A stretch of DNA of 64,000 nt from Haloterrigena gelatinilytica (GTDB lineage: Archaea; Halobacteriota; Halobacteria; Halobacteriales; Natrialbaceae). A model generated the notes under the pieces. The model made no database searches, had not been told where the DNA came from, and was given only the letters and a program-made list of their open reading frames with translations. This document shows, one piece after another, positions 9,843 to 42,143 of this stretch (positions are counted from its first letter, which is position 1; each line of letters starts with the position of its first letter). Location of the stretch: contig NZ_JABUQZ010000001.1 in the NCBI RefSeq assembly GCF_013342145.1, positions 806,001 to 870,000 on the forward strand, read 5' to 3'. Made by a program: the position numbers and the translations under genes.

Positions 9843-10183
9843 ACGCCTTTTTTCCCGACCCGGGCATCCATGCGGTGCCGTTTGCGATGACTCGCGGCAC
9901 ACTCGTACGATACAAGTATCGGATCGGTTTGCTTTCATCAGACGTGATTTTTCGTCCCGTAACGCACCCGTCCGGGCCGCGTCTCTCGGCAGCAGAAGAG
10001 CTATTCGAACTCGACACCATCGCCTCGAGAATCCGCGCGAGTGCCGCCGGTCGTTCCGGCGAGACGCACGACCGCTGGGACTCCCGCGAGATATTGACGC
10101 TCGTGACTGTTATCGGACGTGACGCCTCCAGAACAATGCTGGCCCGTTGATTAATAGTCATCTCTTCCGAATGAGCGGATGGG
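9843..10183. other. 341-bp spacer without a credible gene
   Basis: No reading frame here looks like a protein on either strand. It contains a short perfect dyad CGATAC-aa-GTATCG (near 9908-9921). At its right end it has an AT-rich GATTAATAG about 28 bp before the ATG at 10184, which may be that gene's promoter and would give a leaderless message. Confidence 0.4.
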
Positions 10184-12330: not shown

Positions 12331-12620
12331 ACTATAACATCCCACGAGGCCGGTCTTAAGCGTTCGTCCTGATTGGGAACGGACGGTCCATCGGCCTGAT
12401 AGATCGGTGGTTAGGTAGCGTCGAACGGGACCCCCTCACTGAAATACGTCAGTTATTGATTCCGTCGCACCCGGTCCATCTGGCGATTGTGTGTCTGTCG
12501 GGTGAGCAGTTCGTAAGGAACCAATGATTAGGGTAGAAGGAATTGTCGAGCTGAAGCCATCAAGAAGCTCGATATTGCTGTAGGAGAAGATATAATAGAC
12601 CCCAATCATGATAATGGATC
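12331..12620. promoter_or_regulatory. Island edge and promoter of the AT-rich ATPase gene
   Basis: GC falls from left to right through this 290-bp region, marking the island boundary. It holds a perfect 7-bp inverted repeat, TCGAGCT (12546-12552) and AGCTCGA (12566-12572). A TATA-like GATATAATA (12589-12597) lies at the right distance for transcription to begin at or next to ATG 12621 (leaderless). The dyad about 20 bp upstream of the TATA box could be an operator. No tRNA-derived attachment sequence was found here. Confidence 0.5.
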
Positions 12621-13895
12621 ATGTTCTCGGATAATTTAAAAGCTCACGAGGTTTTCGGTACACAACGGAGTGTGCCTGTCAACTATGTTGAACGGGAGGA
12701 TGTGGATGAAGAGCTTCTCCATAATCTGGAACGTGATCGGTTTGTCGTTATACATGGTGGGAGCAAACAAGGAAAAACGTGTTTGCGAAATCACTGTATT
12801 GAGGAAAAAGAACATGCCGTAATCAGTTGCCAATATAATAGAGGGTTTGAGGAACTCCAGAAGTCGATCTTGAAGGGTATTGGGTTTGAAACAGAAGTAC
12901 TTAGGGAGCAGACGACCTCTGAACATACAAAAATCCGGGCCAAAGCGACTGCTAAGATACCTGGTTTTGGAGAAGCGGGGGGATCAGGGGAAGCCAAGGC
13001 CGGTACTACGGATAAGCAGGTCTACGAAACCCTTGAGATTGATCCAACTGATGTTAATGATATAATTAGGGCTTTAGAGGATATTAGACTGGACGGATAT
13101 ATTACTATTGAAGACTTTCATTATCTCCCAATTGAGGTGCAAAGAAAGTTCGCAAGTACTCTAAAAGCATTATATGATAGGACAGAAGTTACATTTGTAA
13201 TCGTTGGTGTCTGGTTAGAAGAAAACCGTCTAATAGTACATAGTGGTGACTTAGCTGGTAGAGTAGTTTCCGTTGATGCAGACGACTGGAGTCCAGATGA
13301 GTTGAGAGAAGTAATTAGAAAAGGAGAGAATCGACTGAATATAAATTTAGATCATAAATTCAAAAATTACTTGATTAATAATTGTTATGATAGCGTTTTT
13401 ATAGTTCAGGAAGCATGTTTGAAGGCCTGCCAGAGAAGTGGAGTAGAAGAAAAACAAGCGAGTAAGACAACTATCGCGGAAGATATCAATGCTGAAGAAG
13501 TGATTGATGAAGTTGTTGCTGAGCAGGGTGCGAAATATAGAGCGTTTTTACGGAAATTTGCAGATGGGTTTAGGAAAACAGACTATGAATTGTATAAATG
13601 GATATTATATTCGGTTGTGACCACAGACACGAATATTCTTGAAACAGGCTTAGGAATACATCAAATCATGTCGGATATAGAGGAGAAACACCCTAAAACT
13701 GACGACCTAAATCAGGGTAATCTCACACAATCCTTAGAGAGAGTTGTGGACTTGCAGATTGAAGGTAACATAGAACCGATTATCCTTGACTACAATTCAA
13801 ACGATAGACGTTTAGACGTAGTCGACAACCGATTCTTGATCTGGTTAGAAAACACACCGGAGGATACCTTACTTAATCTAATTGATGTTGAATAA
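12621..13895 (+). CDS. AT-rich island-borne AAA/STAND-like P-loop ATPase
   Basis: 424-residue ATPase with Walker A GGSKQGKT (about residues 46-53) and a Walker-B-like hydrophobic strand ITIEDFHYLP, then a probable sensor strand TFVIVGVWLEENRL. A Gly/Lys/Ala-rich segment (about 107-140) separates Walker A from the rest of the core. The C-terminal third looks like a winged-helix domain (GIHQIMSDIEEKH...). The architecture recalls ORC/Cdc6- or STAND-type regulators, and I recall close relatives in bacterial genomic islands. GC content and codon usage are strikingly lower than every neighbour, so it was acquired horizontally. It is the only gene of its island. A defence or replication role is inference only. 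Confidence 0.75.
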   Translation: MFSDNLKAHEVFGTQRSVPVNYVEREDVDEELLHNLERDRFVVIHGGSKQGKTCLRNHCIEEKEHAVISCQYNRGFEELQKSILKGIGFETEVLREQTTSEHTKIRAKATAKIPGFGEAGGSGEAKAGTTDKQVYETLEIDPTDVNDIIRALEDIRLDGYITIEDFHYLPIEVQRKFASTLKALYDRTEVTFVIVGVWLEENRLIVHSGDLAGRVVSVDADDWSPDELREVIRKGENRLNINLDHKFKNYLINNCYDSVFIVQEACLKACQRSGVEEKQASKTTIAEDINAEEVIDEVVAEQGAKYRAFLRKFADGFRKTDYELYKWILYSVVTTDTNILETGLGIHQIMSDIEEKHPKTDDLNQGNLTQSLERVVDLQIEGNIEPIILDYNSNDRRLDVVDNRFLIWLENTPEDTLLNLIDVE

Positions 13896-14302
13896 TGATA
13901 TTACAATTTCATGAATAAAATATCCTATCTAGCACGTTTTAACAGAATTCGGATAGATGGCTGCCTATTTCATTAGTTTGTTTACCTGTATTCGGTGGTT
14001 TTTGTGAGTGAATAGATGAAAGCAAAACCTACTATATCATTTTCTCGCTTTTCTCGCTGGTAATAGATTTCCGATAGAACTCTCATTCCAGGCTTCGTGA
14101 GCATAATCACACAACGGCAACGACCCCCGACAAGGGACTTGATGAATTCCAGTTCGCCGATACTGGTTCTACCTATAAACGTCCCTACGCTGTCTGTGGG
14201 TTCACGAGGAGCAAGGCGACGAGTGGGTGGAGCAGATTTGAACTACGACGTGACGTGCTCGCTTCGCTGTGCGCGTCTCGTCTAGTTCAAACTGCCATGA
14301 CA
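13896..14302. other. Right part of AT-rich island with tRNA-derived sequence
   Basis: About 200 bp of AT-rich DNA follow the ATPase with no credible gene. From 14225 to 14244 there is GGGTGGAGCAGATTTGAACT, matching the 3' end plus T-arm of tRNA-Val (14357 onward) with one gap and one mismatch. At 14284-14296 AGTTCAAACTGCC resembles the same T-arm in the opposite orientation. The perfect inverse pair TTTGAACTA and TAGTTCAAA closes a long imperfect hairpin of about 60 nt. It looks like scar sequence from repeated integration or recombination at the tRNA end. Confidence 0.5.
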
Positions 14303-14356
14303 ATTTTTGACGACACGGACTCCTCGCTTCGCTCGTCGTATTGTGTTGTCAAAAAT
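14303..14356 (-). terminator. Hairpin abutting the 3' end of tRNA-Val
   Basis: ATTTTTGACGACAC (14303-14316) pairs with GTGTTGTCAAAAAT (14343-14356), 13 of 14 positions. On the tRNA strand the mature end is followed immediately by TTTTT, a plausible archaeal terminator, with the hairpin just beyond. Confidence 0.55.
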
Positions 14357-14430
14357 GGGTTGGGGCAGATTTGAACTGCCGACTTCCTCCGTGTGAAGGA
14401 GGTATCATAACCGGACTAGATCACCAACCC
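14356..14430 (-). tRNA. tRNA-Val (anticodon CAC)
   Basis: Read on the minus strand, the acceptor stem GGGTTGG pairs with CCAACCC and is followed by discriminator A; CCA is not encoded. The anticodon arm is CCTCC-TTCACAC-GGAGG, giving anticodon CAC (valine, codon GUG). The T-arm is GGCAG-TTCAAAT-CTGCC. All arms are intact, with no intron. The AT-rich island lies on its 3' side. Confidence 0.95.
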
Positions 14431-39351: not shown

Positions 39352-39666
39352 ATGACCATCCTCCTCCTCGGGACAGTCCTGTTGCTCTCCCTCCTGCCGT
39401 CGCTCGCCTTTCTCGGATTCTGGTACGGACTGGGGCGCATGCAACGGAGTTCGGTGCTCGCCCGAACGAGCGCCCGTGCGGGCGAATCCGATCCAGCGGT
39501 TACGTGGAACGACGTTATCGACGCGTACGCGGACCCGCAGCAGAGTCTCATTTCGACATCGGTCTCCTCACGGTCGGCGAGTCGCGACGATCGCTGTCCG
39601 ACGTGCGCGACGGAAACCGACCCGGTCGGCTCGTTCTGTCACGGCTGTCTGCGAAAACTCGAGTGA
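39352..39666 (+). CDS. Small membrane protein with C-terminal zinc ribbon
   Basis: 104-residue protein: N-terminal transmembrane helix (MTILLLGTVLLLSLLPSLAFLG), a charged middle and the C-terminal CPTCATETDPVGSFCHGCLRKLE zinc ribbon. Same plan as the protein at 26684-26989. ATG 39352 is used; earlier in-frame codons run through the kinase's downstream region. Function unknown. Confidence 0.75.
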   Translation: MTILLLGTVLLLSLLPSLAFLGFWYGLGRMQRSSVLARTSARAGESDPAVTWNDVIDAYADPQQSLISTSVSSRSASRDDRCPTCATETDPVGSFCHGCLRKLE

Positions 39667-40169
39667 AACGCGTTCGCGCTCGCGGTTCGTGCTCCGCTCG
39701 CACGGATCCGTGACGGAAGAACCGTCCTCGTCGGCCACTACGCTAGTCGCGGACCTCGCCCGGGATCGACTACGAACCGACCACTGGATCGTCGTCGTCC
39801 GCTTCGGTCCGCTCGATCGCCTCTCTGACCTCGTCTTGCGTAGCCTCCTCGAGTTCGTCCCTCATCGTACGCGCCACGTTCGCATAGCGAACCCTAAAAT
39901 GGGGCGTACGGTTTTCTCGGCGAGATAATACCGCGACTCGAGGACTCGAGTCGGAACCGAAGCCGAGAGTCGCGAGACCGACGTTGCGGACTGCTTCCCG
40001 CCACCGTTCGTGACTCCGCCGATCGATCGAGAGGCGCACAGGGACCGATATAGAACTTGAACCATCTCCAGACGTGCAGTACGGTTTGCTGAATTGGCTG
40101 CGAGGTCGGCTGAGATGGGACTCCTGAATAGAGAACAGATAATTTAAATATACATATTATCGCACATGT
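39667..40169. other. 503-bp spacer; one weak minus-strand micro-ORF
   Basis: Nothing strong is encoded. On the minus strand a GTG-started frame ending at 39770 would give a 35-residue acidic peptide (MARTMRDELEEATQDEVREA...) with a CATTTTAGG promoter-like sequence just upstream. It is helical and genome-like in codon bias, but too short to assert. The last 40 bp are AT-rich (AATTTAAATATACATATTA) and contain the promoter of the next gene, with the TATA element near 40143-40152. Confidence 0.35.
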
Positions 40170-40607
40170 ATGCTAACAAGGGTGAAGTGCGTAGAGACAA
40201 TAGGCGGGGGTATGGCTACGAGTCCGTCTACCAATTGGGAATGGGCTGAGAGATGGAATCAGTTATTCGATATTCTTTCCGCCGAGCCGCGGCGAGAGAT
40301 CATTAATTCGCTGCTGGATGAACCTCGAGAGCGCCGGCTCTCGCTGCCTGAAGCCGCAGAATCTCCCAATCAATCGATGGACTCTGAGACGTTAACTATT
40401 CACTTGCGCCATCACCACCTCCCGAAGCTCGCTGAAGCGGGGTACGTTCGCTGGGATCGCGAACGGTTCTGTGTCCAGCGTGGCCCCAATTTCGCGGAAC
40501 CGGCATTTATCGTCGAGAACGTGTTCGAGTCAATGGACGAGATCCCCGAGTCCTTGGTTAACAACTGTAAGATTATACAGAAGAGCAGTAACGATGACGC
40601 AAACTGA
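40170..40607 (+). CDS. HTH-type regulator-like protein (DUF7344-like)
   Basis: Protein of up to 145 residues. Its core ERWNQLFDILSAEPRREIINSLLDEPRERRLSLPEAAES...LTIHLRHHHLPKLAEAGYVRWDRE is a winged-helix layout like the haloarchaeal DUF7344 regulators. ATG 40170 is about 25 bp after a TATA box, so a leaderless start is possible; ATG 40212 after GGGGGT is an alternative. The last 14 bp overlap the HalOD1 gene. GC is somewhat lower than the genome, suggesting accessory DNA next to tRNA-Glu. Confidence 0.75.
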   Translation: MLTRVKCVETIGGGMATSPSTNWEWAERWNQLFDILSAEPRREIINSLLDEPRERRLSLPEAAESPNQSMDSETLTIHLRHHHLPKLAEAGYVRWDRERFCVQRGPNFAEPAFIVENVFESMDEIPESLVNNCKIIQKSSNDDAN

Positions 40608-40845
40608 CGTCGTCACCAACGTTGTCAAAGCGGTGGCCGCCCAGGACGGAGTGGAACCAGGGGAACTCGATTTGCTGTACGAGTACATCGACCCCGAAGT
40701 GTTAGAGAACATATGTGAGCAAGAGAAGGGAGACTGGAACTTTACGTTCCAATATTCTGATCATCAAGTCACGCTGACCCACGAGGGACAGATCTTCGTC
40801 GATGGTATCCTGCATACGACGAGTGTATCGACGACGGACGACTGA
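40594..40845 (+). CDS. HalOD1 output domain protein
   Basis: 83-residue stand-alone HalOD1 domain: VVKAVAAQDGVEPGELDLLYEYIDPEVLENI, then WNFTFQYSDHQVTLTHEGQIFVD. The IDPEVL...I block and the closing beta-hairpin are the family signature. Such domains are proposed signal-output modules in haloarchaea; no biochemical function is established to my knowledge. It overlaps the upstream HTH gene by 14 bp in another frame, which implies coupled translation and a functional pair. Confidence 0.85.
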   Translation: MTQTDVVTNVVKAVAAQDGVEPGELDLLYEYIDPEVLENICEQEKGDWNFTFQYSDHQVTLTHEGQIFVDGILHTTSVSTTDD

Positions 40846-41022
40846 CCAGCGAGTGATGCGGCTTCACCACCCTCAATTGGAGCCCCTGCCGGACTGACCG
40901 CCGCCGCTGTATTTACCGACCAGTTCAGAAAATCGCCCGGCGACGCCGAGGTAGAAAGCACAATCTACTCAATCATCGTAGAGACTCTCGTCTATTCCAG
41001 TGAAGAGTGAAGTGAAAATCGC
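40846..41022. pseudogene. Possible decayed coding remnant upstream of the tRNA-Glu 3' end
   Basis: The plus-strand frame ending at a TGA near 41010 reads PAGLTAAAVFTDQFRKSPGD, then VESTIYSIIVETLVYSSEE. Its composition is protein-like but it has no start codon upstream in frame. It may be the 3' end of a truncated gene in the accessory segment beside tRNA-Glu. No family recognised. Confidence 0.3.
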
Positions 41023-41041
41023 ACGACGGCGAGGCCGTCGT
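41023..41041 (-). terminator. 3-nt-loop hairpin at the tRNA-Glu 3' end
   Basis: ACGACGGC-gag-GCCGTCGT, a perfect 8-bp stem, begins 2 nt beyond the tRNA discriminator base. On the tRNA strand it is followed by GCGATTTTC, so hairpin plus short T-run could terminate the transcript. It also belongs to the 3-nt-loop hairpin class. Confidence 0.6.
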
Positions 41042-41042
41042 A

Positions 41043-41117
41043 TGCTCCGTCTGGGATTTGAACCCAGGTCATCGGCTCGAAAGGCCGAAATGATTGGCCG
41101 GACTACACCAACGGAGC
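41043..41117 (-). tRNA. tRNA-Glu (anticodon TTC)
   Basis: On the minus strand the acceptor stem GCTCCGT pairs with ACGGAGC, followed by discriminator A; CCA is not encoded. The anticodon arm is TCGGC-CTTTCGA-GCCGA, giving anticodon TTC (glutamate, codon GAA). The T-arm is CTGGG-TTCAAAT-CCCAG. All arms are complete, with no intron. Confidence 0.96.
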
Positions 41118-41405
41118 GATCACTGCGTTCCCGCTCCGAGCCTCGACGGACTTCGTCCATCTCGCCAACGGAGCGTGCGTCGAACGCAATAGGTCGTTGC
41201 CGAGGCCTAGTAAAAAACGTTCCGTTCCGCGGCCGTAATGGCACGTCCTCACTCGGTCGGATTATTGTCATCTCTTCGCCCTCATTTCCGAGTCAGTGGA
41301 TGCCGAATAGTGGCGTTTCAATCCTTCAAGCGCCGATTTTCTCGTCGATTCGCGAACGCCGCCGACTTCTCAATCCTTTTGATCCCGCAACACAACCACT
41401 CGCAC

Positions 41406-42143
41406 ATGAAATTCGTTCGCTTCCGCGATCCGGCCGGCGCCGTTCGACGCGGCGAGTACGAAGACGGCTACGTTCACTTCGGAAACGAGAGCTACGCCCT
41501 CGAGGACGACGCGATCGACGTGCTGGCTCCCTGCGAGCCGTCGAAGATCGTCTGCATCGGTCGCAACTACGCCGACCACGCCGACGAGATGGGGTCGGAC
41601 CTGCCCGATCGGCCGCTGCTGTTCCTGAAGCCGCCGAACGCCGTCGCCGCCCACGGCGACACCGTCACCGCGCCCGCCGGCAAGGAGCGCATCGACTACG
41701 AGGCCGAACTCGGCGTCGTCATCGGCGAGCAGTGTCGCCACGTCCCCGTCTCGGACGCGATGGACGTCGTCGAGGGGTACACCTGCATCGACGACGTTTC
41801 GAACCGCGACGATCAGAACGAGGAACAGAACTGGATCCGCGGGAAGGCCTTCGACGGCGCCGCGCCGATGGGGCCGGTGCTCGCGACCCCCGACGAGGTG
41901 CCCGACGACGCCAGCGTGCAGTCGCGCGTCAACGGCGAACTCAGGCAGGACGGCTCCCGCGAGCAGCTCATCTTCCCCATCCCGGAGCTGATCGCCGAGA
42001 TCACGACCTACATGACCTTAGAGCCCGGCGACGTCATCGCCACCGGAACGCCCGAGGGCGTCGGCCCGCTCGAGGACGGCGACGAGGTCGAGATCGAGGT
42101 CGAGGGCGTCGGGACGCTCGAGCACAGCATCCGGCGGCCCTGA
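41406..42143 (+). CDS. Fumarylacetoacetate hydrolase family protein
   Basis: 245-residue FAH-fold enzyme (hydrolase, decarboxylase or isomerase of 2-oxo acids). KIVCIGRNYADHADEMG and RPLLFLKPPNAVAAHGD are the N-terminal FAH blocks. The metal ligands are in IDYEAELGVVIG (E and E) and GYTCIDDVSNRD (D), and the end has MTLEPGDVIATGTPEGVGPLEDGDEV. ATG 41406 is the first start giving the family N-terminus (MKFVRFRDP). The substrate is not deducible. Confidence 0.92.
   Translation: MKFVRFRDPAGAVRRGEYEDGYVHFGNESYALEDDAIDVLAPCEPSKIVCIGRNYADHADEMGSDLPDRPLLFLKPPNAVAAHGDTVTAPAGKERIDYEAELGVVIGEQCRHVPVSDAMDVVEGYTCIDDVSNRDDQNEEQNWIRGKAFDGAAPMGPVLATPDEVPDDASVQSRVNGELRQDGSREQLIFPIPELIAEITTYMTLEPGDVIATGTPEGVGPLEDGDEVEIEVEGVGTLEHSIRRP

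Follow-up and report, generated by a model that had tools for sequence, protein, structure and literature searches.

Background

Candidate defence families in PADLOC such as PDC-S59 derive from guilt-by-embedding, and validation is pending for most of them according to a 2026 survey (PMC12988326). PDC-S59 itself is a computational candidate, of which no published test was found and which is not named in the literature searched. Described systems with which its members can be compared include the STAND defence ATPases (AVAST/bNACHT-type), the cores of NLR proteins (CED-4, NRC4), the structures 2qen and 2fna, and the old/tin genes of P2, held in the gpA–portal interval, a described defence hotspot (PMC9122126).

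The window analysed here, a 64-kb stretch of Haloterrigena gelatinilytica DNA, encodes a 424-residue ATPase that is a member of PDC-S59, as it matches the PADLOC profile PDLC05049 full-length (E 3.1e-78; residues 7–408 against profile positions 4–399 of 428). Its predicted domains superpose on NLR cores (Z ~15) and its family, like the STAND defence ATPases, also has TIR-fused relatives, whereas the window protein lacks both a C-terminal repeat sensor and a distinct effector domain, having instead an insert that follows Walker A. The closest solved folds, 2qen and 2fna, share just 12–15% identity with it over the aligned parts, and the likeness to old/tin is one of position, an E. coli relative lying in the same interval. 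Amphipathic beta-hairpins are the killing element of bacterial gasdermins and beta-barrel pore formers; here the likeness is confined to the idea of a hairpin, and no homology with the window protein was seen.

Gene and integration site

The ATPase gene (12621–13895, + strand; ORF supported by profile match and predicted fold) lies on the 3′ side of a tRNA-Val(CAC) gene (14356–14430, − strand), the integration target. Its composition (GC 0.398, GC3 0.353) departs from that of the adjoining genes (GC 0.65–0.74), and the GC profile along the window falls from about 0.67 to 0.37 at the island. A TATA-like box (ATATAATA, 12590–12597, + strand) is centred about 27 nt upstream of the ATG, a position consistent with the gene having its own leaderless archaeal transcript. 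The initial annotation had described a P-loop ATPase of 424 residues with codon usage unlike that of the host on the 3′ side of this tRNA, all of which was recovered; the AT-rich DNA around it, given as about 1.9 kb, is present as well and slightly shorter, at about 1.8 kb (12521–14355), when delimited by the flanks of relatives.

These limits were obtained from the GC profile and from flank alignments. On the tRNA side, the DNA match to congeneric genomes has its start precisely at the 3′ end of the tRNA (window 14355/14356), from where it extends away from the island, in 5/5 genomes, and left-flank homology ends at 12429 in one relative and at 12520 in another, so that the foreign stretch spans approximately 12521–14355. 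Between the conserved flanks, every one of the five relatives has other cargo (about 1.4 to 12 kb) in place of the island. In one relative (L154), copies of the tRNA 3′ end were found at 10051, 10162, and 13251, the segment 10051–13251 encodes an AT-rich (0.41) ORC-CDC6-like ATPase matching PDC-M28C, and a frame with an in-frame stop resembles a tyrosine integrase by eye, with no Pfam hit. In another (L155), an AT-rich cargo gene encodes a DUF2971 protein that matches PDC-S31 (L155:3514–4341) and is accompanied by a short integrase-like C-terminal frame, and two further loci (L156 and L158) contain a second tRNA-Val 3′-end copy that is perfect or nearly so. Given this variable cargo, the tRNA-Val site is an integration hotspot, and some of the alternative cargo matches PADLOC defence candidates.

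An insertion that abuts a tRNA 3′ end precisely and varies between relatives, as seen here, is what a tRNA-targeted integrative element is expected to display. An integrase gene, also expected of such an element, is absent from the island, integrase-like remnants being confined to the relatives' tRNA-Val cargo. Frame-by-frame comparison of the island with that cargo gave only short, weak matches, best around a degenerate, att-like copy of the tRNA-Val 3′ end (14224–14244, + strand; 3 mismatches in 21 positions). This tRNA-proximal copy was the only one detected, no direct repeat of the tRNA-Val 3′ end being found beyond the ATPase gene. The island holds no partner gene either, in agreement with the earlier description of a cargo devoid of integrase and partner. 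More copies of the att-like tRNA-proximal sequence occur in the same genome (G000:C1:975428, 976382, and 3037662). A second GC dip (0.53–0.58) at window positions 39500–41500, beside tRNA-Glu(TTC) (41043–41117, − strand), is possibly another tRNA-linked island.

Archaeal loci of the family were examined at 14 sites, 13 of which were haloarchaeal or had GC-rich surroundings. The gene is AT-rich in all 13 (GC 0.36–0.45 vs 0.51–0.66 around), and in eight of them it follows a tRNA gene on the 3′ side at no more than 4 kb (tRNA-Val in three cases, tRNA-Arg in two, and tRNA-Ala, -Thr, and -Met), the distance being 640 bp or less in six of these. As a haloarchaeal genome of some 4 Mb carries roughly 50 tRNA genes, the closer distance would be satisfied by fewer than 1% of positions, and six of 13 is therefore far beyond chance. 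The homologue at L161 (G392) has tRNA-Met on one side and, at +2491 (~2.5 kb), a 21/22 copy of the tRNA-Met 3′ end on the other. At L199, five tRNA-Leu-like 3′-end copies, mostly 106 bp apart, were observed downstream of the homologue, ~2.6–3.1 kb past tRNA-Arg(TCT); the first of these is apparently the tRNA-Leu gene itself. In Salinibaculum (L151, G433:C1:410779–413086), the homologue is in two pieces with about 1.1 kb between them and is probably interrupted.

Protein family and predicted fold

Pfam searches with the window protein returned a sub-threshold match to AAA_22 and a weak match to TniB, and a sequence search of solved structures gave no significant relative. An AlphaFold model built with 104 aligned sequences had a mean pLDDT of 90.5, with only residues ~90–140 poorly defined. 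The model was closest to the archaeal STAND-type ATPases 2qen (Z 20.1) and 2fna (Z 18.4), followed by Orc1/Cdc6 (Z 17.4), the NRC4 resistosome (15.7), CED-4 (15.0), and Dark (14.4), and aligned to 2qen, 2fna, CED-4, NRC4, and Dark over most of its length. A STAND/Orc-type ATPase fold can thus be predicted with confidence from the model: the P-loop ATPase is followed by predicted helical and winged-helix domains, as in STAND proteins, an arrangement that is the same in Orc/Cdc6 and consequently does not discriminate between the two.

Walker A (GGSKQGKT; 12756–12779, + strand) includes K52, which is conserved in 103/104 relatives, and Walker B (ITIEDFHY; 13101–13124, + strand) includes H167 and Y168, which, like R214 and W223, are invariant in 104/104 sequences. 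The GxP motif of the helical domain was seen as GSP in clade-1 relatives (e.g., L060) and not in the window protein, and no C-terminal repeat sensor (LRR, TPR, WD40) was found, the protein ending after the winged-helix-like region; full-length relatives are mostly ~405–460 aa long. The winged-helix-like tail proposed in the initial annotation agrees with the predicted structure, and its Gly/Lys-rich segment after Walker A proved to be an insert that occurs family-wide (residues ~95–140). As identities or settings that would speak against a mobile defence gene, the annotation had named an Orc1/Cdc6 initiator and a constant chromosomal locus. The former was rejected, as no Orc1/Cdc6 family was among the Pfam or NCBIfam matches at E up to 1, although the fold is akin; with regard to the latter, the haloarchaeal sites are spread over the different tRNA genes listed above, and when 553 ORFs taken from around 41 loci were compared all-vs-all, no neighbour family recurred except widespread superfamilies (ABC transporters, for example).

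Insert between Walker A and Walker B

The insert (residues ~95–140; 12903–13040, + strand) is predicted to form a flexible amphipathic beta-hairpin and is the proposed effector element. It measures ~40–60 aa across the family and is absent from the five TIR-fused relatives compared, the spacing between Walker A and Walker B being 84–112 residues in 97 TIR-less members vs 41 in 5/5 TIR-fused ones. Within the insert, hydrophobic residues alternate with a period of two (180 degrees; mean z 2.25 vs same-letter shuffles), with z > 1 in 82% of 103 sequences vs 0–8% in four other regions, and this beta-type alternation is present in all four major clades. The insert is more variable than the rest of the protein (entropy 2.69 vs 2.04); as its letters vary and the alternation is kept, it is the pattern that is conserved and not the sequence. 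Its first strand is Lys-rich, its net charge averages +1.2 and is zero or negative in 35% of sequences, and its non-polar face in the window protein consists mostly of alanine. A strict rule of a Lys-rich first and a Glu-rich second strand was only partly borne out, as the simple finder often misplaced the tip, and was not relied on. In two AlphaFold models from different subfamilies, the insert is of low confidence, and the only strands drawn are two short ones at the hairpin base. The haloarchaeal subclade of L184 and L185 has a hydrophilic insert without a hydrophobic tip, unlike most other members examined.

Distribution and genomic context

The family is sparsely distributed, with members in 3/393 genomes sampled over the phylum, 12/392 over the order, and 6/369 over a bacterial class (~1–3%). 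Reference genomes yielded 124 relatives, the best 80 of which come from many bacterial phyla and three haloarchaea; 60 relatives were found in viral contigs (IMG/VR) and 12 on plasmids, one of them directly after ParA/ParB genes. INPHARED phage genomes contained no match to the window protein and a single weak match to a sister protein, the viral evidence for the family thus consisting of the IMG/VR contigs and one E. coli prophage. No TIR-fused relative was found in the viral contigs. The prophage relative is that of E. coli UMNF18, where a P2-like prophage has it flanked by the gpA-type replication endonuclease on one side and the portal gene on the other; homologues with genes for a prophage repressor, portal, or terminase nearby were found as well. 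In a quick tree, the window protein and the other intact haloarchaeal members of its clade, three in all, form one group (SH-aLRT 94) inside a bacterial tree, a nesting that argues for transfer from bacteria; the branch of the window protein is long. The family has clearly spread horizontally and in association with prophages, and for the window gene the sequences argue for a bacterial ancestry followed by horizontal acquisition. Among the neighbours of relatives are integrases, prophage genes, and a number of genes for defence; defence-gene enrichment near bacterial relatives was modest, with no background rate for comparison, and counts against a defence function.

Proposed mechanism and alternatives

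The match to PDC-S59, the prophage relatives including that in the P2 old/tin locus, and the defence-candidate cargo at the same tRNA-Val give good reason to infer that the gene serves defence. On balance, it is probably a single-gene antivirus ATPase of STAND/Orc-like type, a candidate reading weakened by the lack of a repeat-type sensor, the usual trigger reader of STAND proteins, and by a TIR comparison that comprises five sequences. A small integrative element, which inserted into the tRNA-Val 3′ end and later lost its integrase, may have brought the gene in as its cargo. The resting protein would be nucleotide-bound and inactive until its helical/winged-helix half sensed a viral trigger, which would promote ATP-dependent oligomerisation. 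The clustered inserts would then fold into amphipathic beta-hairpins and serve as effector, the cell membrane being the most likely target, and this action would halt growth of the infected cell.

That the insert hairpin is the effector and replaces an effector domain is suggested by its exclusion by TIR and by the alternation, and is put forward tentatively, the odds being somewhat against it: the insert has low confidence in AlphaFold, is hydrophilic in L184/L185, and has mostly alanine on the non-polar face of the window protein. A membrane pore made by the hairpin is proposed by analogy and is doubtful, with an alternation well above shuffles on one side and a low-confidence insert structure on the other. 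The complete scheme is equally speculative, namely a candidate family of small NLR-like ATPases with neither repeat sensor nor effector domain, in which a built-in hairpin would form a pore on oligomerisation, TIR would be swapped in for it in sister proteins, and the genes would have passed from bacteria and prophages into haloarchaeal tRNA islands.

The main rival to an effector hairpin is a hairpin that binds DNA or RNA or senses the target in the manner of Orc, TnsC, or MCM, the same defence ATPase then remodelling or blocking invading DNA with ATP. The fold, which also matches Orc/Cdc6 and the DNA-bound TnsC and MuB (Z 13–17), the weak TniB match, the Lys-rich first strand, and a variability that would suit a recognition loop all fit this explanation, which nevertheless appears rather unlikely, as the insert is often neutral or negative in charge, keeps its hydrophobic alternation across all four clades, and is missing where TIR is present. 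An Orc/Cdc6-like or partition-like ATPase, once used by a plasmid or provirus for maintenance or replication and left over from a decayed integrated element, would share the Orc/Cdc6-like fold and account for the plasmid relatives, including the one next to ParA/ParB; it is improbable, as no Cdc6/Orc family was matched, relatives occur inside phages with their own replication gene and solitary among varied chromosomal genes, and the TIR fusions point to immunity. Similarly small odds are given to a prophage-derived gene for superinfection exclusion or lysogeny control, directed against competing mobile elements or plasmids and not lytic viruses. Carriage by prophages and archaeal cargo integrated at tRNAs would be in keeping with such a role, whereas many phyla also have chromosomal relatives, whose neighbours, where scanned, are mostly not phage genes, and the role is hard to tell apart here from antivirus defence.

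Conclusions

With the antivirus ATPase as the preferred reading, the candidate family PDC-S59 gains a testable structure and mechanism. A defence-type gene also carried by bacterial prophages has entered archaea, where the 3′ ends of haloarchaeal tRNA genes are recurrent places for such single-gene cargo. If the hairpin is the effector, an ATP switch and a killing element would be combined in one protein of 424 residues, which would provide a minimal model of NLR-like immunity.
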